Positions 236-11,143 of a DNA stretch of 11,143 bases are shown in pieces. Under the pieces are notes generated by a model. The model was given only the letters and a program-made list of their open reading frames with translations. It was not told the DNA's origin and did no database searches. The stretch comes from Fibrobacterota bacterium (GTDB lineage Bacteria; Fibrobacterota; Chitinivibrionia; Chitinivibrionales; JANQEN01), in contig JAUXBV010000052.1 in NCBI GenBank assembly GCA_030619215.1, positions 1 through 11,143 on the forward strand. Reading direction: 5' to 3'. The position numbers were made by a program, and so were the translations under genes. Position 1 is the first letter of the stretch. Every line of letters starts with the position of its first letter.

Positions 236-1423
236 ATGAGTATACAACAGCCAAAAATTGACCGTGTGCGATATGAGTCCTTCGGGGGTATTGTCTCCTG
301 CCTCCAGCCTCCGTTTCTTGCCTGGGTTGACAGGGATTTCATGCGCAATTTGGGTTACACTGACTCACCGCTTTGGAGTGCTGAAACGGGTGATACTCAT
401 TATCTTTCAGCACCGACAGAGGTTCACGTTTCAGTAACAAACAGGTGCTCTCAGCAATGCGACGGCTGCTACATGGATTCAAAGCAGGATTGTGAGAGTG
501 AGCAGACAACAGTTGAATGGAAGCAGCATCTGAAAACTTTACGTGACATGGGTGTGTTTCATGTTGCGTTAGGTGGCGGGGAGGCTTTTGAAAGAGAGGA
601 CTTTGGAGAGCTTGTTTCTTATTGCAGGGAAATCGGCCTGGTTCCCAACCTGACAACAAACGGCCAGACAATAGGGGAGCGGGAGGTTGAGATTTGTAAA
701 AAGATGGGACAGGTAAATATCTCAATTGACGGAGTTAATAGTCATTTCACTATTAATGGAAGAAACGGCAGCTTTGAAAAGGCTGATGGGGCAATTAAAG
801 CATTGAAGAAGGCAGGGGTACAGGTTGGAATCAACTGTGTGGTTTCAATGAAAAATTTTCCTTTCCTGCAGGAAGTTGTTCAATATGCCGCAAAAAAGGG
901 ATTGAGTGAAGTTGAGTTCCTGAAGTATAAACCTTCAGGGCGTGGCAGGCAAAGATACGAGGAATATTCATTATCTCAGGAGATGATACGGCAGTTTTAT
1001 CCCATATTGATTGAATACTCTAAAGAGTATAAAATCGAGCTGAAAATTGACTGCTCCTTTATCCCGGCTCTGGTTTATCATAAGCCGCCGAAGGATGAGC
1101 TTGAAAAGCTTGCTGTTACCGGTTGTGACGGAGGAAATCTTTTAATGTCCATACGTAGCAACGGCTGCTTTACAGGATGTTCATTTGTTGATAACGGCGA
1201 ACATATTTCCGGAATAAAGAACAAGTGGGAAACGTCAGGGCATCTTAACGATTTCCGGAAACTTGTAAACAAAGCTAAAGAGCCCTGTAAATCTTGTGAA
1301 TATTTATCTATATGCAGGTGTGGATGCAGGGCAGTGGTTTTATATAACAATACAGATTTCTTTGCACCTGATCCGGAGTGTCCCATTGTGTATGATTATA
1401 ACATGAAAGAGGATATGTTATGA
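236..1423 (+). CDS. Radical SAM/SPASM peptide-maturase-like protein
   Basis: A cytoplasmic radical S-adenosylmethionine enzyme, probably modifying a peptide or protein. Numbered from the upstream ATG at 221 (400 residues), it has the cluster-binding motif CxxxCxxC at Cys76, Cys80 and Cys83, followed by aromatic Tyr84. It also has the SAM-binding GGGE at 118-121. The C-terminus carries a full SPASM pattern for auxiliary iron-sulfur clusters: Cys302, Cys316, then CxxC-x5-C-x3-C at Cys356, 359, 365 and 369, and a last Cys387. Cys320 and Cys367 are additional. SPASM proteins of this layout commonly mature ribosomal peptides (PqqE, AlbA, MftC families). About 70 residues precede the cluster motif and include a conserved-looking FGGIV...DRD block; I see no clear PqqD-like domain. 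The stop overlaps the next start (ATGA), so the small peptide is translationally coupled. The start is uncertain: ATG 236 begins MSIQQP, ATG 221 adds five residues, and neither has a Shine-Dalgarno. The family call is sure; the substrate is inference. Confidence 0.9.
   Translation: MSIQQPKIDRVRYESFGGIVSCLQPPFLAWVDRDFMRNLGYTDSPLWSAETGDTHYLSAPTEVHVSVTNRCSQQCDGCYMDSKQDCESEQTTVEWKQHLKTLRDMGVFHVALGGGEAFEREDFGELVSYCREIGLVPNLTTNGQTIGEREVEICKKMGQVNISIDGVNSHFTINGRNGSFEKADGAIKALKKAGVQVGINCVVSMKNFPFLQEVVQYAAKKGLSEVEFLKYKPSGRGRQRYEEYSLSQEMIRQFYPILIEYSKEYKIELKIDCSFIPALVYHKPPKDELEKLAVTGCDGGNLLMSIRSNGCFTGCSFVDNGEHISGIKNKWETSGHLNDFRKLVNKAKEPCKSCEYLSICRCGCRAVVLYNNTDFFAPDPECPIVYDYNMKEDML
1407..1413 (+). promoter_or_regulatory. 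Ribosome binding site of the 60-residue peptide
   Basis: AAGAGGA lies six bases before the ATG at 1420, inside the last codons of the radical SAM gene. It is one of the few strong Shine-Dalgarno sequences in the window and supports the short ORF being a real, translated gene rather than chance. Confidence 0.7.
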
Positions 1424-1602
1424 GAAAACAAAGACTTTCCCTGCCTAAGGGTGTCTTAAAGGTAAAGACAGGGTATAATCCAAACTCAAGCAGTATTGGA
1501 ACGGTGATTTACTCCTTCCCATTGGTTTATATTGCTGTAAGTGCAGCGGCTGCGGTACTCATTGCCTTGATCTATGGTAAAAATGGCGGGAAAAATGAAT
1601 AA
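1420..1602 (+). CDS. Small membrane-anchored peptide, candidate substrate of the radical SAM enzyme
   Basis: A 60-residue protein with three parts. Residues 1-17 are basic (five Lys or Arg residues in MRKQRLSLPKGVLKVK). Residues 18-28 form a polar block, GYNPNSSSIGT. Residues 30-52 are hydrophobic, with an Ala-rich stretch and a short basic tail (GKNGGKNE), fitting one membrane span. There is no Cys, so thioether (sactipeptide) chemistry on this peptide is not possible. There is no double-glycine leader cleavage site ahead of a core. It starts inside the stop of the radical SAM gene (ATGA) with a good Shine-Dalgarno, and its end overlaps the next gene by 8 bases, so the three genes form one coupled unit. 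The tight placement beside a SPASM enzyme suggests it is the modified peptide, with the NPNSSS block as a plausible target. That role is inference. It could instead be a small structural membrane subunit. Confidence 0.7.
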   Translation: MRKQRLSLPKGVLKVKTGYNPNSSSIGTVIYSFPLVYIAVSAAAAVLIALIYGKNGGKNE

Positions 1603-3043
1603 AACAACAATTTGTTTTTTGTTTATAATATTTATCGCCTGGACGCAGGAAAAGCAGGTTCCCTGGACAACATCTCCGGAAGTAAAGCAGGAGGATGTTA
1701 GTAAAATTGAAAATGTCAGTATAAAACAGGGTAATGAAGCGGTATTTTCAGATACGGTTATCAGCCTGGAGATAGAGTCGGCGTTTGCTGAACCTTATCG
1801 CTATCTACGTACCGGCAGGCTTGAGAAACTTCTGAACCTGCTGAAAAATAATATGGATATTGACATTCAGGTAATACCGGCAGATTCACTTTGTGATGAT
1901 AAGATAAATTCAACGAAGTTTCGTAGAAATTACTACGATCAATGCGTATTAAATATTATTAAATATGCTCAAACAAGGCAAAGGAACAAAGATGCTGCAA
2001 AAAAATCCCTCTTTAATGCGGCTTTAATCTCATTTAATAATCTTGACAGGCCCCGGTTGGCTCTTTCTATGTATGAGCTTGCTGAAGCTTCAGGATACGA
2101 GAATGCATCCGGGCAGGTAAAAAAGGTACAACATTACATTGAACACGACCTGCCACATACCGGCCTTTTGAAGATCCCGTGGCGTAGCAAAACCGAAAAG
2201 GAAAAGCAGGATTATGCCGATCAGCTTAAAGATATTCTTAGTAAAAATCCTGATACAATGCTGAAATTAAAGTTCAGTAAGCAAATTGGTGATGTCTATT
2301 ACAATATGGAAAAATACGGGCCGATGACGAAGTGGTATCGTAAAGCAGCGGCAGTGGATTCAAGCATCGTAAAAGATACTCCGGTTGGATATAGAATGAA
2401 TATTGGAAAAAAAGTTATGCTGAGGCAAAAACTCATTTACACCATATATATAATTTATGCTATAATTATAATTCTTCTTTTGTTAAGCATTTACAGGAGC
2501 AGGGATTTTAGAGCAGCCCTTTTTCTGCGCAGGGTATTTATTTGTATACCGGTTTTTTTCATCATTGCAGTTATTACCTTTTTGCTTGATTTCGCACTTA
2601 CATCCGGATCAATTGAAGCTGTACTGGGTAAGCCGGATGCAATTGTACCTAAGCCAATAATTCCTTTCAGTGTGTTTGATCTTTCATTTATGAAAGGCAT
2701 TATAATTATTCTGATTTTGGGATTTTTACCAATACTAATCTCAATTTTTAATACTTCCTATAAAAAGCAAATATCAAAGATATTCATTATAATCGTAATA
2801 TTTCTTACAGTTGTGTCAACATGGTGCCATTTTACCCTGTTTATGGTATTTGATAATAAATTGAATAAACGCGCAGCTACTTCAAATACCCATATCTATT
2901 TTGACGGGGAGCTTGAGAGAATGCTGATTGATAATCCGAAGAAGGTATTAAAGGCAAAACCGGCTTTGTTTTCCAGTGGAAATAAGGATCTTAACCACTT
3001 TATTAAAGAAAAAGCACCTGAGTTGTTAAAAGGTAAAGAGTGA
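1595..3043 (+). CDS. Signal-sequence protein with TPR-like region and four membrane segments
   Basis: About 482 residues if started at ATG 1595. I prefer this start over the in-frame ATGs at 1574 and 1583 because GGCGGG lies just upstream and the product then opens with a lysine and a hydrophobic signal sequence (MNKTTICFLFIIFIAW). The region to about residue 275 is soluble and predicted extracytoplasmic. It has helical repeat character, with a TPR-like unit near residues 227-258 (DVYYNMEKYG, then KWYRKAAAVD) and another weak one near 154-180. Four hydrophobic segments follow at about 281-300, 314-335, 366-386 and 394-418, then a charged tail of some 60 residues. No catalytic motif is recognisable. 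Its start overlaps the small peptide's end (ATGAATAA), so it is co-translated and may bind, export, anchor or process that peptide. Function is unknown; no protease or ABC-transporter motifs are seen. Confidence 0.8.
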   Translation: MNKTTICFLFIIFIAWTQEKQVPWTTSPEVKQEDVSKIENVSIKQGNEAVFSDTVISLEIESAFAEPYRYLRTGRLEKLLNLLKNNMDIDIQVIPADSLCDDKINSTKFRRNYYDQCVLNIIKYAQTRQRNKDAAKKSLFNAALISFNNLDRPRLALSMYELAEASGYENASGQVKKVQHYIEHDLPHTGLLKIPWRSKTEKEKQDYADQLKDILSKNPDTMLKLKFSKQIGDVYYNMEKYGPMTKWYRKAAAVDSSIVKDTPVGYRMNIGKKVMLRQKLIYTIYIIYAIIIILLLLSIYRSRDFRAALFLRRVFICIPVFFIIAVITFLLDFALTSGSIEAVLGKPDAIVPKPIIPFSVFDLSFMKGIIIILILGFLPILISIFNTSYKKQISKIFIIIVIFLTVVSTWCHFTLFMVFDNKLNKRAATSNTHIYFDGELERMLIDNPKKVLKAKPALFSSGNKDLNHFIKEKAPELLKGKE

Positions 3044-3237: not shown

Positions 3238-3966
3238 ATGTCAAACAAAAAAGCAGCACTAATAACCGGCGGTTCGAGAGGTATAGGCAGGGCAATTTCC
3301 CTTCGTCTTGCACAGGATGGCTATCATGTAATCATTAATTATCGAAGCAATGAAAAGGAGGCTGCGGCAACACAAAAAATGATTACCGACGACGGTTTTT
3401 CCAGCGAGCTTTGCCCCTTTGATATTACTGACCGCAAAGCAGTGTCGGAAGCGATAGAAGCTATTTTAGAAAAACACACGCTTCACACTCTCGTGCTTTG
3501 TGCCGGTATCCGCCATGATGAGCTGCTGATTTTCATGTCGGAGGAGCAGTGGGATTCAGTGATTGATACAAACCTGACCAGTTTTTATGCTGTTGTAAAG
3601 CCTGTTGTCAGGTATATGATACCCAACAGGGCGGGAAGAATAATAATAATATCCTCAACTTCCGGCCAATTCGGTTTACCCGGACAGGTGGGCTATTCAG
3701 CGGCAAAGGCCGGCCTTATTGGCGCGACCAAAGCGCTTGCCAGGGAATGCGCCAAGAAGAATGTACTTGTCAATGCTATTGCCCCGGGTTTTATTACTAC
3801 CGATATGACGGGCGATATTAAAGAGAAGGAGCTGGTTAAAACGGTTCCCATGAACCGTTTTGGCAAACCGGAGGAGGTTGCATCCGTAGTCTCTTTCCTT
3901 GCTTCTGACGACGCCGGTTACATCACCGGGCAGGTTATCGGGGTTAATGGCGGGGTGTATATGTGA
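3238..3966 (+). CDS. 3-oxoacyl-ACP reductase-like short-chain dehydrogenase (FabG family)
   Basis: A 242-residue classical SDR, the usual length for FabG, probably reducing a 3-oxoacyl-ACP with NADPH in the cytoplasm. The cofactor motif TGGSRGIG is at residues 10-17. The active-site set is complete: Asn112 (in DTNL), Ser140, Tyr153 and Lys157 (YSAAK). The C-terminus carries the family hallmarks APGFITTDMT and VNGGVYM. The usual NNAG motif reads LCAG at 87-90, as in FabG-like reductases of some specialised fatty-acid or aryl-polyene-type clusters, although no other genes of such a cluster are nearby. It stands alone after a 194-base gap and is followed 62 bases later by the transglycosylase gene, with which it may be co-transcribed. 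No Shine-Dalgarno precedes the ATG. A housekeeping FabG is possible but not shown, because fabD, acpP and fabF are absent here. Confidence 0.88.
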   Translation: MSNKKAALITGGSRGIGRAISLRLAQDGYHVIINYRSNEKEAAATQKMITDDGFSSELCPFDITDRKAVSEAIEAILEKHTLHTLVLCAGIRHDELLIFMSEEQWDSVIDTNLTSFYAVVKPVVRYMIPNRAGRIIIISSTSGQFGLPGQVGYSAAKAGLIGATKALARECAKKNVLVNAIAPGFITTDMTGDIKEKELVKTVPMNRFGKPEEVASVVSFLASDDAGYITGQVIGVNGGVYM

Positions 3967-4028: not shown

Positions 4029-6218
4029 ATGAAGCAGACTATCTACACACTTATTATCTATCTCCAAATACTCTTATTATTCCCATGTCAAATATATAGT
4101 GCAACGACTCTTGTTAATGAAAACAGGCCGGAATGGTCCGGTACAAAAGCTATCCGAGACGCTGATTTTGAGAAGGCATTATCTGAGATTCAGGCTGATA
4201 CCAATGTGACGGATACCGCCTTTAATATGTTCAAGCTGGGTTGTGTTTATCATGGGCTTGAAGATTGGAGTAAAGCGCTCTTTTATTTTAAAATGAGCGC
4301 CAGGATGAGCAAAAAATACACACCCTTTGCCTATGAGAGAATCGGTGATATTGAGCTTGCACAAAAGAGATATGAGAGCGGCCTGAAAGCTTACCGTGTT
4401 GCCGCTCGAAAAACAGAGCTTATGCCGTACCGGTATGTATTGCATAAGAAGATGTATTCGGTTGCGATGAAGCATGCGGAGGCGATTGGGAAGATCTCAT
4501 GGCTTGAGGAGGTTGTGGGGGAGGATGAGGAGGTCATGCTTGATACGGGTATGAAGGACATTTTTATTCAACTCCTTGAAGCCGGGAAATCAAAAGAGCT
4601 TGACAGTGCATTGTTAAAATTTATCGCCCCCTCAAAATACAATGAAGTACAATGCTATATTTGTTCGTTTTTATCAACGGATTATTTAAATGACACGATG
4701 TTTTCCACAAAAACATTGTATCTCCTGTCAAAGCTTTCGTATACCTGCAAGCAGTATAAAAAATCAAGCGATTGGCTGCATAAAGCTCTTGACAGGAAAG
4801 ATTTTAAAAAGGCGGTCTCCCGGCAGAACTTTATATACCACCGGGTTGTTTTAAATTACAGGCTGAAAAATTATAACAAAGTAATAAAATGGGGTACGAA
4901 GTATGATAAAACCTACGGATCGGATCCCGGATTGGTTTTTATACTTGCCCGTTCATACAGGAGCCTGGGAAAAAGTAAGCAGGCGGCCCACTGGTATGAC
5001 AAACATATTAAATTGTTTCCCAACCTTTCCAAGACCCATGATATTATCTGGTACCGGGCCTGGCAGAAGGAGGATGCCAATCAGTTTGAGGCTGCAAGAA
5101 AATTTTACCGCACCCTTTTTAAAAGATATAAACATGGATCAAAAGCTGATGATGCATATTACCGTTACGCGCTTTCTTATTGTAAAGAGAGAAATTATAA
5201 AACTGCGATAAAAGCATTTTCAATGTTCCTGAAAAAATGTCCCTATTCGACCTTTTCCGCAGGAGCTCATTTCTGGAGGGCGAAAAGCTATTTTGCCATA
5301 AAGCAGTTTGATAATGCCAAAGAAGTATGTCAAAACCTTATCCGGACAAATCCTGCGGATTATTATGCATACCGTGCCCGGGAATTACTTGTTCTTATGG
5401 GTGATTCTTACAGTGCATTGCGGGTTGATACGGCACGATCCGATGACGAGGCTTTTCTCTGGCTGGATTCGGTTACTGAGGATACGGCAAAGCATTTGTC
5501 CGGAAACGATAGTGCGAGGTTTTACCTTGGCAGTTGTCTTGCAGCAGTAGGTATGCTGGATCAAACGGAGCTGGTTTTAGAGCCTTTTGAGATATCGTAT
5601 GGTAAGAACCTGTTATTGCAGTATGAGCTGGCGAGGTTGTATCAGATAAGCAATAACCCGGCTCACTCCTTTCGGGTAGCGAAGCGTCTATCATGGCGTA
5701 TCCCGGAAGAGGCACGCTCATGCATGCCTTCTCAGATATATTCGCTTTTATACCCCGGATCCTATATGAGTATAATTCAGTCATCTGCTGAGATTAATAA
5801 AATTGAGCCGGAACTTGTCAGTTCTATTATTCGCCAGGAGAGTATTTTTAATCCTACAATCGTATCGCCTGCCGGTGCTATAGGTCTGATGCAGATAATG
5901 CCCTATACCGGGGAGGAGATAGCAAAGGACCTTAAAGAAACGTTTGTTCTTGATTCGTTATATTATCCCTCGGTAAATGTCAGGTATGGGTCGTATTATA
6001 TCAAGAAACTTCTCGATAAATTCAAAGGGAGTATTGTTCTGGCTGTTGCCGGTTATAATGGCGGCCCCCATAATGCTAAGAAATGGAATGCGCAGAACAG
6101 CGATGACGGATTCGATATGTTTGTAGAAGACATTGGTTTTTCGGAAACAAGAAGGTACGTTAAAAAAGTATTGGGAAATTACTGGACTTATAGAGCATTA
6201 AAGGGTATTGGTCATTAA
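4029..6218 (+). CDS. Periplasmic TPR-containing lytic murein transglycosylase (SLT, GH23)
   Basis: A 729-residue secreted enzyme that cleaves the MurNAc-GlcNAc bond of peptidoglycan to give 1,6-anhydro ends. Residues 1-25 are a signal peptide (Lys2, a hydrophobic core, a likely cut after YSA). Most of the chain, about 60-560, is alpha-helical TPR-type repeat, clear near 64-131, 267-335 and 370-450. It recalls the superhelical scaffold of Slt70, but the protein is somewhat longer. The C-terminal catalytic domain (about 590-715) has every SLT landmark: catalytic Glu604 in RQESIF, the SPAGAIGLMQIMP motif at 613-625, and AGYNGGP at 674-680. Together with its length and TPR arm this resembles family 1A enzymes, or the TPR-SLT proteins common in delta-proteobacteria and FCB bacteria. 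It follows the SDR gene after 62 bases and has no Shine-Dalgarno. The enzyme class is firm; the exact cell-wall role (turnover, secretion-system assembly or division) is open. Confidence 0.92.
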   Translation: MKQTIYTLIIYLQILLLFPCQIYSATTLVNENRPEWSGTKAIRDADFEKALSEIQADTNVTDTAFNMFKLGCVYHGLEDWSKALFYFKMSARMSKKYTPFAYERIGDIELAQKRYESGLKAYRVAARKTELMPYRYVLHKKMYSVAMKHAEAIGKISWLEEVVGEDEEVMLDTGMKDIFIQLLEAGKSKELDSALLKFIAPSKYNEVQCYICSFLSTDYLNDTMFSTKTLYLLSKLSYTCKQYKKSSDWLHKALDRKDFKKAVSRQNFIYHRVVLNYRLKNYNKVIKWGTKYDKTYGSDPGLVFILARSYRSLGKSKQAAHWYDKHIKLFPNLSKTHDIIWYRAWQKEDANQFEAARKFYRTLFKRYKHGSKADDAYYRYALSYCKERNYKTAIKAFSMFLKKCPYSTFSAGAHFWRAKSYFAIKQFDNAKEVCQNLIRTNPADYYAYRARELLVLMGDSYSALRVDTARSDDEAFLWLDSVTEDTAKHLSGNDSARFYLGSCLAAVGMLDQTELVLEPFEISYGKNLLLQYELARLYQISNNPAHSFRVAKRLSWRIPEEARSCMPSQIYSLLYPGSYMSIIQSSAEINKIEPELVSSIIRQESIFNPTIVSPAGAIGLMQIMPYTGEEIAKDLKETFVLDSLYYPSVNVRYGSYYIKKLLDKFKGSIVLAVAGYNGGPHNAKKWNAQNSDDGFDMFVEDIGFSETRRYVKKVLGNYWTYRALKGIGH

Positions 6219-6393: not shown

Positions 6394-7344
6394 ATGTTTA
6401 ATAGAATTTTTATCTGTATAGCGCTATTATTTCCGGTAATGGCAGGTGCCCAGACAATAGTTGAAAAAATGGACCATGGTGATAATACGATAAGCTGGCG
6501 GGTATATGATACAAAAGGGATACCTGTGGCTTTTGCCATAGAGGGGTCCGATCTGTGGTATTCCATTGGGATGACCGTGGGCCTTTTTGACCTGAAAACA
6601 AACCAGGAGAGGTTATATCCGAAACTTGGAGAGGTAGCCTCGGCCGGCGTTAAAACCATTGCCGGTGATAAGAGGGGAGGCGTCTGGTTTGGCGGTGATG
6701 CGGGAGCAATCCTCTTTAAGAATGGTAAATTCAAAGCATTTACAAAAGATAACGGGCTCTCAGATAATACGGTTAATAAGATTTTGTGCGTTTCAGGCGA
6801 CGTATGGATCGGCACGGAAAACGGTGTTACACGATATAAAAATGGTTCCTTGACAGTATATACCAAGAAAGATGGTTTGTGCGGAAACAGCATTCGTGAT
6901 ATAGCGGCGGATGACAAAGGTACCGTATATTTTGCCACCAATAAAGGAATAGCGGCCCTAAGAGGAGGTCAATGGAAAAAGTATGACGCGAATAGCGGCC
7001 TCAGCTATAACGATGTAAAGGCAATTGCTTACGATGACCGCAAGGGGGAGCTGTGGGCGGCAGTTGGAGAGATGGATGTTAACAGCTTTAACGGTAAAGA
7101 GTGGAGCACGTACATGGATATACAAATAGGTATTGGCTGTATTATGAGCGATACCCAGAGCAGAATATGGTTCGGATCAGAGGCCGGAGCTTTGAAATAT
7201 AACGGTTTCGAGTGGCTTACCGACCCTGCTAAGATCGGTTTCCCGGCAGCGGTGGTTAATGATATGTATCGCGACGGTAAAGGCGATCTCTATTTTGCCA
7301 TTGATAGCGGTGTGTTGCACATGAAGAATCCATACCCGTATTAA
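6394..7344 (+). CDS. Secreted beta-propeller protein with two-component-regulator-type repeats
   Basis: A 316-residue exported protein. Residues 1-19 form a signal peptide (MFNRIFICIALLFPVMAGA, cut before Gln20). The rest is a string of about seven propeller blades, each with a W/Y-[FIY]-[GA]-x(3-4)-G core: VWFGGDAGA at about 97, VWIGTENGV at 137, VYFATNKGI at 178, LWAAVG at 220, IWFGSEAGA at 258 and LYFAIDSGV at 299, plus a weaker first blade near 54. Linkers such as KDNGLSDNTVNKI and KDGLCGNSIRDI are typical of the Reg_prop repeat, which normally forms the sensor half of hybrid histidine kinases. Here the protein ends after the last blade: there is no transmembrane helix, Y_Y_Y domain or kinase. 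It is therefore a free periplasmic or extracellular propeller, perhaps a ligand- or protein-binding module. It has a strong ribosome site. The downstream response regulator is 330 bases away and is not clearly in the same operon. Confidence 0.87.
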   Translation: MFNRIFICIALLFPVMAGAQTIVEKMDHGDNTISWRVYDTKGIPVAFAIEGSDLWYSIGMTVGLFDLKTNQERLYPKLGEVASAGVKTIAGDKRGGVWFGGDAGAILFKNGKFKAFTKDNGLSDNTVNKILCVSGDVWIGTENGVTRYKNGSLTVYTKKDGLCGNSIRDIAADDKGTVYFATNKGIAALRGGQWKKYDANSGLSYNDVKAIAYDDRKGELWAAVGEMDVNSFNGKEWSTYMDIQIGIGCIMSDTQSRIWFGSEAGALKYNGFEWLTDPAKIGFPAAVVNDMYRDGKGDLYFAIDSGVLHMKNPYPY

Positions 7345-7674: not shown

Positions 7675-9651
7675 ATGGATCAGGTGCAGGAAACACTTAT
7701 TCTTGTGGCAGATGATGAAACTGCTATCAGGGAGATGGTTTCAAAATATCTTAAAAAGATCGGGTATTTCACCGTTACGGCCTCTGATGGGGCAGAAGCA
7801 TTACAGATCTTTAAGAAGAAAGCGCCTCAACTTGTCATAATAGATATAAAAATGCCCAATATGGATGGGCTTAAATTTCTTAAGAATGTTCGTAAGTTTG
7901 ACACTACTACCCCTATTATTTTCATAACAGGCTTTCCGGATATGAATAATGTTATGGAGGCAATTCATTTAGGCGCTTATGACTATATCATTAAACCTTT
8001 CCGGATGGAGGCAATATCCTCCAAAGTCGTTCAGGCGCTCAATGCTATTAACCTTGCGAAGGAGAATGCCGCTTTAGTAGAACTTGCATCATTGCACGAT
8101 ATCGCCATTAAACTTGCAAATACACGCGAGGTAACCAAAATCCTAGATGATACCTTCCAATTTTGCCTCGACGTATTAAATGTTGACAACGGCGCTATCC
8201 TTCTTGTCGATAAGGCTCAAAACGCCCTGCAAGTTGTCCGTAAAAAAGGTATTCAGCCGGGGCCGGATTTTTCCTTAATATCCGAGAAGACAGAATGGCC
8301 TATTTCAAAATGGGTGCTTAAGCAGGCTCAATCCGTTTTTGGTGTAAAAGGTGTTTTAAAACCAAAGGTTGATGTTCCTTTTCCCGAAAAAGTAACCGGT
8401 TCAATTTTGTCCGTTCCCTTGAAAGCGCGAGAGGAAATAATCGGCGTCGTTAACCTGAACCAGACAGAGAAAAAGGCCCCTTTTACCGAGCTTGACCTTA
8501 ACATACTGGAAGTACTTGCCTCACAGGCCGGTACTGCCATTAACAACGCTAAATTATACACATCCCTAAACGAGAAAATAGCTGAACTGTCGTTAATCAG
8601 CAGCTATTCTGAGCATTTTGTTGGGTTGGTAGATTTAAATGACGTGATTCGCTGCCTTTTCGAGACCGTATTGAAAAACTTCCCTATCGATGTTACCGGA
8701 TTCCTGGTTGTAAAAAAGCGTTTCCATGAATTTGTATACTGTACGCGGGGGCAATTGTCGGATGAATGGACGGATAAGATAATCGAAGAGACAATTGATA
8801 AATATAATGATTTTACCGATTCATCGGTTATGAGGAGGAGAGTTAAGTCGCATTTAATGGAGATAACCCCCTCTGAAGGAGGCATACTTAAGACCCCATT
8901 AAGCTTTACCCATATAATCCCGCTTGTCTGGGAGGATTTTAATTTCGGAGCCTTATATCTCGGTGCAAAAGAGGTACCTGAGAAAAAGGATGAGCAAATC
9001 AAGGTGTTGACAAGCCTGATCAGCCAGACGCGTATTGCTTTGACAAGTGCAATGCTCTACAGCCAGATGAAAGAGAATTATATCCGGACAATAAAGGCAC
9101 TGGCTATTGCGGTTGATGCAAAAGATACCTACACGCACGGCCATTCGGAAAATGTCATGAACATTGCTGAGGCCATTGCTGAAGAGATGAATATTGAGGC
9201 TAAGAATATTGGTGTTATTCGTGACGGTGGCCTGCTGCATGATATCGGTAAAATCGGTATTCCAGGGTATATCCTGAACAAGCCGGGGCCTCTCACCCGT
9301 GAAGAATTTAACGGTGTTATGAAAACACACAGTACTCTGGGAGCCAATATTGTAAAAGAGGTGCCCTTCCTGCAGGAGTTATACTCATTGATTTTACATC
9401 ACCATGAAAATTATGACGGCTCCGGTTACCCTGACGGCTTAAAGGGAGAAGATATACCCTTGGGTGCCAGGATTTTGCATGTTGCGGATGCATTTGAGGC
9501 GATGACATCAAATCGGCCATATCGGGACAGCCTGGGTAAGAAGGAAGCCGTTAGAAGACTCCTTGAAGGCAGAGGTAAGGAGTTCGATCCTGACGTTGTT
9601 GAAGCATTTATACGGGCGGCTGAGAGGAGAAACTGGCTGGGAGAGGAATAA
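7675..9651 (+). CDS. Response regulator REC-GAF-(GAF)-HD-GYP, probable cyclic-di-GMP phosphodiesterase
   Basis: A 658-residue cytoplasmic signalling protein. Residues 5-122 are a REC domain with the acidic pair Asp13/Asp14, phospho-acceptor Asp57 in VIIDIKMPNMDG, Thr85 and Lys107 (KPF), so it should be phosphorylated by a histidine kinase. Residues of about 135-295 form a GAF domain, and about 300-465 look like a second, more diverged GAF. The C-terminal HD-GYP domain (about 470-650) has a full motif set: THGHS with His490, HD at 522-523, HHHEN at 575-579, DGSGYP at 581-586, Asp605 and RPYR at 614-617. By family knowledge it hydrolyses cyclic-di-GMP to pGpG or GMP. Two GAF regions imply a small-molecule or dimer-linked input besides phosphorylation. 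No kinase or cyclase gene lies in the window, so it is an orphan regulator here. The start ATG has only a weak AGG some 11 bases upstream. Confidence 0.93.
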   Translation: MDQVQETLILVADDETAIREMVSKYLKKIGYFTVTASDGAEALQIFKKKAPQLVIIDIKMPNMDGLKFLKNVRKFDTTTPIIFITGFPDMNNVMEAIHLGAYDYIIKPFRMEAISSKVVQALNAINLAKENAALVELASLHDIAIKLANTREVTKILDDTFQFCLDVLNVDNGAILLVDKAQNALQVVRKKGIQPGPDFSLISEKTEWPISKWVLKQAQSVFGVKGVLKPKVDVPFPEKVTGSILSVPLKAREEIIGVVNLNQTEKKAPFTELDLNILEVLASQAGTAINNAKLYTSLNEKIAELSLISSYSEHFVGLVDLNDVIRCLFETVLKNFPIDVTGFLVVKKRFHEFVYCTRGQLSDEWTDKIIEETIDKYNDFTDSSVMRRRVKSHLMEITPSEGGILKTPLSFTHIIPLVWEDFNFGALYLGAKEVPEKKDEQIKVLTSLISQTRIALTSAMLYSQMKENYIRTIKALAIAVDAKDTYTHGHSENVMNIAEAIAEEMNIEAKNIGVIRDGGLLHDIGKIGIPGYILNKPGPLTREEFNGVMKTHSTLGANIVKEVPFLQELYSLILHHHENYDGSGYPDGLKGEDIPLGARILHVADAFEAMTSNRPYRDSLGKKEAVRRLLEGRGKEFDPDVVEAFIRAAERRNWLGEE

Positions 9652-9720
9652 TGGTTAATGGTCAATGGTTAATAGTCAATGGTTAATTGTCAATAGCTAA
9701 TTGTCAACTGAAGAGTGTCA
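9651..9720. repeat. Tandem heptad (14-bp period) repeat
   Basis: Five 14-base units run without a gap: ATGGTTAATGGTCA, ATGGTTAATAGTCA, ATGGTTAATTGTCA, ATAGCTAATTGTCA, and a decayed ACTGAAGAGTGTCA. Each splits into two related heptads (ATGGTTA plus ATGGTCA types). The array starts at the last base of the HD-GYP stop codon and fades toward the right, with a partial sixth unit at about 9721-9727. It lies between convergent genes. Confidence 0.85.
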
Positions 9721-9774
9721 ATAGGCAATATGGAAGCGGCAATCAAAGATCGGAAGTTATAAATAAAATTATCA

Positions 9775-9784
9775 ATTGACCATT
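9775..9784 (-). repeat. Inverted copy of the heptad repeat
   Basis: ATTGACCATT is the exact reverse complement of AATGGTCAAT at 9657-9666 in the tandem array. It sits just before the stop of the minus-strand gene. The two could pair across about 108 bases, or mark the two edges of a small repeat element. Confidence 0.5.
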
Positions 9785-9788
9785 CCAA

Positions 9789-10235
9789 CTATCTTCCCAC
9801 CTTATTTTTTAGTGTATCCACCCTGTATTTCCCATATTTAAGCTTAAGATCATGTAAGAGAAATTCATCCCCTTCCGGCCGCATTCCCGCTTTGAAGAGC
9901 GTATCCATCATTTCTAGTTGTTCAACTGCTTTCCGCAGTTTTTTTTCATTTGAAGTAAAAACTTCTGCCAGACTTTCCTTAATGCGCCGCTCCCTGTCCG
10001 CCTTGTTTGATATGCGTATTCCATACGGCCCGTTTTGCTGTTTGAATTCAGTGATATGCCTGTTGTAATCTTTTTGGACAGTATATCTCTTAAGAAGTTG
10101 TTCGCATAAAAACCAAATTATTCTGGTTACAACTGTAGTTAGCAAAGCTATCCGGATATTTCGTATGAAGAAAAGATAAACTGATATTCCACAAAGGACG
10201 GAAATGTAGAATCGATAAAAACTAAGCGTCCACAT
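9789..10235 (-). CDS. Hypothetical membrane protein with two N-terminal helices
   Basis: A 148-residue protein of unknown function. Residues about 7-23 and 27-48 are hydrophobic and likely form a membrane hairpin. The remainder is charged and soluble, with a helical, possibly coiled-coil stretch at about 78-112, and ends basic. Its ATG overlaps the TAA stop of the 74-residue gene by one base (TAATG), so it is translated by coupling; the nearest AAAGG is too distant to act alone. It is the last gene of its unit and converges with the HD-GYP gene across the heptad repeat. No motif allows a functional call. Confidence 0.7.
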   Translation of the reverse strand: MWTLSFYRFYISVLCGISVYLFFIRNIRIALLTTVVTRIIWFLCEQLLKRYTVQKDYNRHITEFKQQNGPYGIRISNKADRERRIKESLAEVFTSNEKKLRKAVEQLEMMDTLFKAGMRPEGDEFLLHDLKLKYGKYRVDTLKNKVGR

Positions 10236-10459
10236 TATTTTTTTAACATACCTTTAAGTGCTTGAGCGATCAATTTGGCCGCTTCTTTACTGATGCCCCT
10301 TTGAGCATTTCTTTGAAAATGTTTTGCTGAAAGAATATTATCATGGGAAGGTCCGCGGCCCGGGATTGGGGAATTCTTTTTAGTAGATTTTCTTTTATAG
10401 GGGTTTTTTGAACTTCTCCTGTAACCGTCCGGCGTAAGGTATTGAGGCTTTTCGTACAT
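10235..10459 (-). CDS. Small basic hypothetical protein
   Basis: A 74-residue, strongly basic protein of unknown function. The first half is rich in Lys, Arg, Pro and Ser with YLTPDGYRRS near the start, and looks disordered. Residues about 40-73 look helical (NILSAKHFQR, then KEAAKLIAQALKGMLKK). A good ribosome site, AGGA, lies seven bases upstream of the ATG on the minus strand (10467-10470). It is translationally coupled to the downstream two-TM gene, which suggests joint action, perhaps the basic protein docking on the cytoplasmic face of its partner. It has no Cys or recognisable DNA-binding motif. Confidence 0.65.
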   Translation of the reverse strand: MYEKPQYLTPDGYRRSSKNPYKRKSTKKNSPIPGRGPSHDNILSAKHFQRNAQRGISKEAAKLIAQALKGMLKK

Positions 10460-10478
10460 ATATAAATCCTGTGTAAAA

Positions 10479-10498
10479 TGTTATATTAAAGTATAACA
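10479..10498. promoter_or_regulatory. Inverted repeat upstream of the 74-residue gene
   Basis: Arms TGTTATA (10479-10485) and TATAACA (10492-10498) are perfect inverted repeats around a 6-base spacer. On the minus strand the site includes TATACT (10495-10490), a possible -10 box, so it may be an operator over the promoter. I see no good -35. Confidence 0.35.
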
Positions 10499-10502
10499 CA
10501 AA

Positions 10503-10551
10503 ATTGAGCTGGGGGTACTCCCACATAATATGCCAATCCCACAGCTCCAAT
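10503..10551 (-). terminator. Interrupted hairpin, weak terminator candidate
   Basis: ATT-GAGCTG-GGG (10503-10514) pairs with CCC-A-CAGCTC-C-AAT (10538-10551), giving 12 base pairs with two single-base bulges. It lies 28 bases past the stop of the right-hand minus-strand gene. On the minus strand it is followed only by a short T-run (AATTTTG), so termination would be inefficient. Confidence 0.35.
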
Positions 10552-10578
10552 GGTTTGTTAATGAATTTCCATTTTTCT

Positions 10579-11143
10579 CTATTCTTCAAACTTAATTGAT
10601 TCGTAAAAATTGACAAAATGGGGTTTATTTAAATTATAAGCTTCTTTAATTCCAGAATAAATAATCCCAATACAATGTGTACGTGTTTTTTTATAAAGAA
10701 AATCAATATAGATATCATATTCTTTTCGTACCCAGTTTTTGCATTTATAACCTATGTATTTTTCTTTATTCACTTGTCGTTTTTGTGCACCTAATGCTTT
10801 TTTCCATAGTGAAATAAAATTATTTAAGTCCCTTCTTTTTGTATATATAAAAGCAATAGTCGCTTGAGAATAACCTGGTTTTCTTTTTTGTTTTGAAAAT
10901 CCAGTAGCAATTGAAACAAAATCTGTTTTATAGCCTGAATTATCAGTGGCTCTATAGTGATTTCCTATCATAAAATGGTAAGGAAATATTAGTTTCCATT
11001 TGTTTAGATTTGATGACAGGAAAAAGTTTGCCCCCTTTAATTTAAAATTAAACAGTGCTGATTCCTTAACAATTGAGTCACCATTCCAATTTGAATCTAA
11101 TACAGTATAAACCAATTTTGCTCCAATTACACCGAGGGTATCC
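10579..11143 (-). CDS. Hypothetical protein, 5' end beyond the window
   Basis: The reading frame is open from the stop at 10579-10581 to the right edge, at least 187 residues. A TTG at 11115 is a possible start, but the frame continues upstream without a stop and has no evident ribosome site, so the true start is probably outside. The visible part is mixed alpha/beta in character, rich in Lys, Tyr, Phe and Asn, with no membrane segment. It ends in a pattern (HCIGIIYSG, then HFVNFYESIKF) reminiscent of small secreted PsbP/DcrB-fold proteins; that likeness is only an impression. The DNA is noticeably more AT-rich than the neighbouring genes, which may indicate recent acquisition. Function is unknown. 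Confidence 0.65.
   Translation of the reverse strand, partial: DTLGVIGAKLVYTVLDSNWNGDSIVKESALFNFKLKGANFFLSSNLNKWKLIFPYHFMIGNHYRATDNSGYKTDFVSIATGFSKQKRKPGYSQATIAFIYTKRRDLNNFISLWKKALGAQKRQVNKEKYIGYKCKNWVRKEYDIYIDFLYKKTRTHCIGIIYSGIKEAYNLNKPHFVNFYESIKFEE

Follow-up and report, generated by a model that had tools for sequence, protein, structure and literature searches.

Gene layout of the locus

The window analysed here is the entire 11,143-nucleotide contig JAUXBV010000052.1 (G000:C55) of a draft genome of a Fibrobacterota bacterium (68.6% complete). Its left end carries three genes that overlap (236-1423, 1420-1602 and 1595-3043). They encode a radical S-adenosylmethionine (SAM) enzyme of the SPASM type, a 60-residue peptide with a hydrophobic segment, and a membrane protein with tetratricopeptide repeats (TPR). 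The original prediction, made from the letters of the DNA, had read these genes as a candidate uncharacterised radical SAM peptide system, and this reading was supported. The features are as follows.

236..1423, + strand: radical SAM/SPASM enzyme, 395 amino acids (Pfam Radical_SAM 6.6e-18, alignments, AlphaFold model, solved folds)
236..415, + strand: N-terminal region of the enzyme, residues 1-60, R-x-E-x-FGGI...PPFLAxVDR, possible peptide-binding domain (alignment conservation, model)
446..469, + strand: CxxxCxxC motif of the radical SAM cluster, C71, C75 and C78 in residues 71-78 (invariant in 25 aligned enzymes)
1124..1381, + strand: SPASM region, C297-X12-G310-X4-C315, C351-X2-C354-X5-C360-X3-C364, C382 (invariant in 25 aligned enzymes)
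1406..1412, + strand: Shine-Dalgarno-like AAAGAGG ahead of the peptide ATG (raw sequence)
1420..1423, + strand: ATGA stop/start overlap of enzyme and peptide (enzyme TGA 1421-1423, peptide ATG 1420)
1420..1602, + strand: membrane-tailed peptide, 60 amino acids, proposed substrate of the enzyme (relatives, alignments)
1465..1500, + strand: conserved core KTGYNPNSSSIG, peptide residues 16-27, likely modification site (alignment, codon comparison)
1504..1575, + strand: hydrophobic segment of the peptide, residues 29-52 (translation)
1595..3043, + strand: TPR membrane partner, 482 amino acids, 8-base overlap with the peptide (hhalign homology, all-helical model)

Both overlaps had been described originally and were found as described: the ATGA shared by the SPASM gene and the small open reading frame (ORF), and the 8 bases between ATG 1595 and the end of the ORF at 1602. 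The Shine-Dalgarno site is also present, but it had been placed at 1407-1413, one base too far downstream. An alternative in-frame ATG for the enzyme occurs at 221. The membrane ORF has a second in-frame ATG at 1574; ATG 1595 is favoured as the start because a relative, L019, has the identical 8-base overlap (peptide 10496-10678, membrane protein 9136-10503).

The 60-residue ORF is a peptide gene

The peptide carries the core K-x-G-[YF]-NPNSSS-x-G ahead of its hydrophobic segment. Its relatives share one layout: a basic N-terminal tail, the core, the hydrophobic segment and a polar tail. As had been noted before, the translation of the window peptide contains no Cys. It had also been said to end in a membrane span rather than a cleavable core; the span is there, and the likely target is the conserved block upstream of it.

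Relatives were collected by scanning one degenerate DNA pattern over 84,980 species genomes. The pattern required [hydrophobic]-K-x-G-[YF]-N-P-N, so that divergent peptides were missed and identities at these positions arise by construction. The scan returned 75 stretches from 56 assemblies; 80 of the 81 matches read as a peptide, and 55 of the 56 genomes were genuine. The match in L108 was not a peptide on inspection. K16, G18 and NPNSSS were invariant among 56 aligned peptides, partly by construction in this motif-gathered set. NPNSSS occurred in 80/81 pattern matches, though T, C, R and W were permitted at the three Ser positions.

Short ORFs overlapping a neighbour are common, and this one might be non-coding or due to chance. 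This alternative is countered by conservation across phyla and by the codons. Synonymous codons were mixed in the 81 copies of the codon comparison, a set whose filter itself required NPNSSS, and each Ser position used both Ser codon families. In nine close pairs of peptide relatives, the ratio of nonsynonymous to synonymous substitution rates (dN/dS) was 0.08-0.32; a value near 1 would have spoken against the original prediction. The window's own two pairs were saturated at synonymous sites (proportions of differing synonymous sites, pS, 0.77 and 0.89 vs 0.21 and 0.29 for nonsynonymous sites, pN) and gave no ratio. We regard a chance ORF as virtually negligible; the 60-residue ORF is a real gene.

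Searches of Pfam and NCBIfam gave no match above cut-off for the window peptide or for six relatives, and the window peptide gave only weak matches in PHROGs (best 0.0027). No description of the system was found in the open-access literature, a search that most subscription papers and all preprints lie outside. With no match in Pfam, NCBIfam or the literature searched, the system appears to represent a class of enzyme-modified peptides not described before.

Distribution and co-occurrence of enzyme and peptide

According to titles and tree labels, the peptide occurs in Myxococcota, Thermodesulfobacteriota, Planctomycetota, Kiritimatiellota, Bacteroidota, Delongiibacteriota, Spirochaetota, Elusimicrobiota, Bacillota, Pseudomonadota, Aminicenantes and the window's own phylum. 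Many source assemblies are metagenome bins and individual phylum assignments may err; the system spans at least ten phyla.

The original prediction would have been refuted by SPASM homologues that consistently lack the small ORF, and this was not the case in the samples. Among 100 relatives in the window's group, a close enzyme was present in five other genomes (E 1e-72 or better), each with an adjoining peptide. The order in G027 and G031 is membrane protein, peptide, enzyme, while that in the window is enzyme, peptide, membrane protein; thus, the set stays together while its order changes. In the window's phylum, 167 genomes were searched with the peptide profile, which gave ten real copies in seven genomes. 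About 60 weak peptide matches (E about 1e-3) in another family of the phylum were counted as chance; the four loci inspected ran antisense to a large ORF, which we take to be argS. Weaker radical SAM matches in 9 genomes (E 1e-20 to 1e-23, approximately 28% identity) were other enzymes, with no peptide match at E <= 0.01.

Outside the window's phylum, 49 of the 50 pattern genomes carry the peptide, and 46 of these 49 have the family enzyme (E <= 1e-80). Six pattern-matched genomes of the window's phylum have both genes, and the peptide-first total is therefore 52 enzyme carriers among 55 genomes. Geomesophilobacter sediminis Red875 (L089), a culturable host, is one of the genomes with both genes. 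The enzyme-first samples used an enzyme threshold of E <= 1e-60, and some draws include genomes known from the pattern scan. The enzyme was found in 4/244 genomes of the class of G184 and in 3/298 of the class of G207, and all of these had the peptide (4/4 and 3/3).

The largest sample was 282 genomes of Myxococcota, the phylum of G209. The enzyme was present in 52 of them, and the peptide profile matched 46 (E <= 0.01), 44 of which were enzyme genomes (raw table 44/8/2/228, Fisher p 1e-40). On inspection, seven of the eight enzyme-only genomes had the peptide fused directly upstream, and both peptide-only genomes had the enzyme. The eighth enzyme-only genome, G905, has its locus cut by a contig end and is undecidable. 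After inspection, both genes were present in 53/54 carriers, G905 being the remaining one. A check of eleven peptide regions that were weak or unlinked showed the core motif in every genome. Enzyme and peptide lie on different contigs in G191, G1011, G778, G917 and G945, each with the core motif, and lie apart on opposite strands in G936 and G960. Linkage alone therefore cannot explain the pairing. A conserved small peptide gene is tied to a putative maturase gene, as expected of ribosomally synthesised and post-translationally modified peptides (RiPPs).

Peptide-enzyme fusions and the Ser/Cys switch

Peptide and enzyme share one stop-free frame, with the peptide first, in 14 of 20 Myxococcota loci that were chosen mainly because fusion was suspected. 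The divergent Myxococcota core reads G-x-x-[P/A]-[N/S]-C-S, vs G-[YF]-N-P-N-S-S elsewhere, so that the first core Ser is replaced by Cys. The tree set of 85 enzymes comprised 50 with a Ser-type peptide (0 fused), 27 with a Cys-type peptide (22 fused) and 8 without a peptide in the stretch. In the maximum-likelihood enzyme tree, one branch splits the Ser-type from the Cys-type (support 100/98), where shuffled labels would be expected to need 22.5 changes. The fusion trait requires four changes on the same tree. The spacing G...[S/C]-S..[G/A] is the one feature common to all peptides; the aromatic residue, Pro and even the first Asn vary. Because nothing beyond this spacing is kept throughout, the alignments point to the [S/C]-S pair as the probable modification target.

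The fusions also bear on the idea that the peptide serves the enzyme as a small membrane anchor or as a regulator, the substrate then being something else. A fusion holds the peptide permanently on the enzyme, and the 17 of 22 fused Cys-type enzymes concerned may need no peptide release. For an anchor, hydrophobicity would be needed but the invariance of NPNSSS would not. In many genomes the peptide occurs two or three times, in some cases several kb off beside other proteins, and in unfused loci it often adjoins the TPR protein rather than the enzyme. We consider an anchor or regulator improbable.

The SPASM enzyme and its possible chemistry

The window enzyme scored 65.9 bits against Pfam PF04055 (cut-off 29.5) and belongs to the radical SAM superfamily. 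Its SPASM identity, named in the original prediction beforehand, was borne out by the CxxxCxxC motif and by the complete seven-Cys spacing, which was invariant in the 25 aligned enzymes. This spacing equals the motif CX9-15GX4C ... CX2CX5CX3C ... C quoted in PMC5715301. The AlphaFold model has a predicted local distance difference test (pLDDT) value of 86.3 and a predicted template modelling (pTM) score of 0.85. Its best solved-fold matches are SuiB, SkfB, PqqE, anSME and CteB; the SuiB alignment covers model range 3-384, and PqqE is the nearest sequence in the PDB (9.2e-27). SuiB, SkfB, PqqE and CteB are peptide-modifying RiPP or cofactor maturases, and anSME modifies a protein.

The enzyme reached no NCBIfam cut-off among the 25 of 68 matched models listed. 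The top match among those listed was MftC (TIGR03962, 127.8/265 bits). GeoRSP (TIGR04303) came second among them and is similar to that extent, but the window enzyme lies below its 400-bit cut-off (127.7 bits). PqqE (TIGR02109) scored 104.5/381.35 bits at equivalog level. A PADLOC search gave only weak radical SAM and 4TM matches, which were set aside.

In kind, the system is a SPASM maturase with its own peptide. PqqE/PqqA and MftC/MftA likewise combine a seven-Cys SPASM enzyme with a dedicated small peptide; the window differs in the hydrophobic tail of its peptide and in the unreached NCBIfam cut-offs. SuiB, SkfB and CteB, which combine a RiPP recognition element (RRE) with radical SAM and SPASM/Twitch domains, are the nearest folds over almost the whole enzyme model. 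Unlike in those systems, the window peptide has no Cys thioether donor and no KxxxW-type partner. It also does not fit the sactipeptides or ranthipeptides, as it has no Cys; Cys in the core is confined to the divergent Myxococcota branch. Enzyme residues 1-60 are a possible peptide-binding domain; residues 8-38 are modelled as three strands and a helix, with pLDDT 45-75 across most of the region.

Three chemistries were considered, and each of them is less probable than not taken by itself. The first is an anSME-like oxidation of S23 (or Cys) to C-alpha-formylglycine, which would place a reactive aldehyde on a membrane peptide. This reaction is described for anSME, whose SPASM fold and Ser or Cys at the target position are shared here, and it would suit the Ser/Cys exchange in the core. 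Asp277, in the numbering of the anSME alignment, is the catalytic base in anSME. The aligned position in our enzymes is Ser (S316, after the second SPASM Cys), invariant in 25, which speaks against formylglycine. To our knowledge, the sulfatase-type motif is also absent from the peptide, and the presumed substrate is not a sulfatase. This chemistry is a tentative and rather unlikely candidate.

The second is epimerisation, in which D-residues in the Asn-Ser-Ser segment would be produced by C-alpha abstraction and a conserved enzyme Cys would return the hydrogen atom. In the 25 enzymes, C273 is a further invariant Cys in addition to those of the clusters, C201 is nearly invariant, and a Ser/Cys/Ala exchange in the core would be tolerated. 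Peptide epimerases have been described as relying on a critical Cys (PMC8326336). We regard epimerisation as rather unlikely.

The third is a carbon-carbon or carbon-oxygen cross-link in the core, e.g., from Tyr/Phe to Asn/Ser, as made by SuiB or PqqE, whose likeness to our enzyme would suit it. Myxococcota peptides with Leu, Val, Arg, His or Pro in place of the aromatic residue still keep the enzyme, which argues against it. A cross-link among Asn and Ser alone would be unusual, which was counted against this chemistry. A cross-link is rather unlikely too.

The membrane partner and the gene cassette

Cassette maps were made from all-against-all BLAST and profile maps and covered 82 peptides in 73 loci. 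The recurrent cassette consists of a lipoprotein of unknown family, peptide type B, a ResA-like lipoprotein (AhpC-TSA, 1.9e-22), a metallophosphoesterase of about 760 residues, peptide type A, the TPR membrane protein, the enzyme and a DUF2950-like protein (1e-6). L113, L101, L062 and L102 hold most of it in a single stretch. The window holds a reduced form of this cassette. The TPR membrane protein adjoins 37/82 mapped peptides. Two or three peptides per genome were found in 19/49 genomes, nearly always with one family enzyme.

The membrane protein had been proposed as a partner from its overlap with the peptide gene, and it is homologous to the TPR membrane protein of the other phyla (hhalign 98.3%, E 1.3e-14). 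The Geobacter-type membrane protein is likewise homologous (E 7.2e-21). The AlphaFold model of the window protein is all-helical and of modest confidence (pLDDT 64.5, pTM 0.45). No recurring protease was found in the mapped loci (flanks of approximately 4 kb), nor did a PqqD-like partner turn up in the mapped cassettes.

Several details concern the metallophosphoesterase. In L064 (1749-4034) and its relatives, the long C-terminal part has a weak ArsG permease match (E 0.004). Some copies have a CxxC segment, which may tie the metallophosphoesterase to the ResA-like redox lipoprotein. In G164, paralogous secreted metallophosphatase-like genes lie near peptides (L053 8092-11269, L054 10121-14767).

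Neighbouring genes in the window

Downstream of the system lie ordinary genes, beginning with a FabG-like short-chain dehydrogenase (3238-3966). The gene at 4029-6218 encodes a TPR protein that also has a lytic transglycosylase domain, 6394-7344 encodes a regulator-propeller protein, and 7675-9651 encodes a response regulator containing GAF and HD domains. Directly after the HD-domain gene, the raw sequence at 9650-9715 has short AT-rich near-repeats of the type GTCAATGGTTAAT.

A proposed membrane-resident peptide with its own maturase

We consider it probable, at approximately 0.82, that the window carries a reduced form of a widespread system made of a dedicated SPASM maturase, a membrane-resident modified peptide and a TPR protein. 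The maturase-substrate pairing is supported by what was seen directly in the genomes (co-occurrence, also where the genes are unlinked, fusions, the complete SPASM motif, and a set kept despite its varying order), together with the single Ser/Cys change on the enzyme tree and the fold likeness. From this, we strongly infer that the enzyme modifies the peptide; the site, the product and the role of the peptide are proposals.

In the proposed mechanism, the SPASM enzyme would recognise the small peptide as its dedicated maturase. The likeliest site of hydrogen abstraction would be the [Ser/Cys]-Ser pair (S23-S24) of the core, just ahead of the hydrophobic segment, and the reaction would precede insertion of the peptide into the membrane. 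The modified peptide would then remain there, a small subunit associated with the TPR protein and not a released natural product. One maturase would serve two or three peptides in the fuller cassettes, beside a periplasm-facing metallophosphoesterase and a ResA-like redox lipoprotein.

Some observations weigh against this interpretation. The N-terminal tail is more positive than the C-terminal tail in 51/77 copies (mean +3.7 vs +2.1), which indicates an N-in topology; the fusions place a cytosolic-type enzyme after the hydrophobic segment, which indicates C-in, and the two are contradictory. The family enzyme is missing from 3/55 peptide genomes, all of them small draft assemblies of 1.5-2.7 Mb (none in G168 and G196, a distant one at 1e-46 in G174). 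Seven of the 82 mapped peptides have no adjoining cassette gene on either side. TRAP transporter genes adjoin the peptide in three loci (DctP in 3, TAtT in 2). Lastly, the enzyme N-terminus gave no profile match to 13 PqqD sequences as a PqqD-like RRE, a comparison in which two control segments were also unmatched. The TRAP genes lie at L056 4326-6851, L087 423-1672 and L110 21-2633, and the enzyme of these genomes is elsewhere or was not found.

Biological meaning

What sets the system apart from its relatives in kind is a hydrophobic tail next to the core, a maturase shared by several peptides, peptide-enzyme fusion and the periplasm-facing cassette. We tentatively suggest, with confidence short of even, that the modified [Ser/Cys]-Ser pair does its work in situ, as a protein-derived cofactor or a covalent handle would. 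It might do so in a membrane complex with TPR proteins, the ResA-like lipoprotein and the metallophosphoesterase, as a cross-phylum class distinct from secreted natural products.

The short soluble core and the soluble enzyme make the system directly testable in vitro, and the Ser/Cys switch is a simple handle on the chemistry. The original proposal was to purify the peptide after co-expression with the enzyme and look for mass changes. Provided that the peptide is a substrate of the enzyme, the two form a widespread family of SPASM maturases and substrates, unnamed in the libraries searched, that occurs in at least ten phyla, many of them known mainly from metagenome assemblies. It would depart from the usual picture, as the target would lie beside a hydrophobic segment and one maturase would serve several peptides with different membrane proteins. 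In one lineage, substrate and enzyme would be a single protein.

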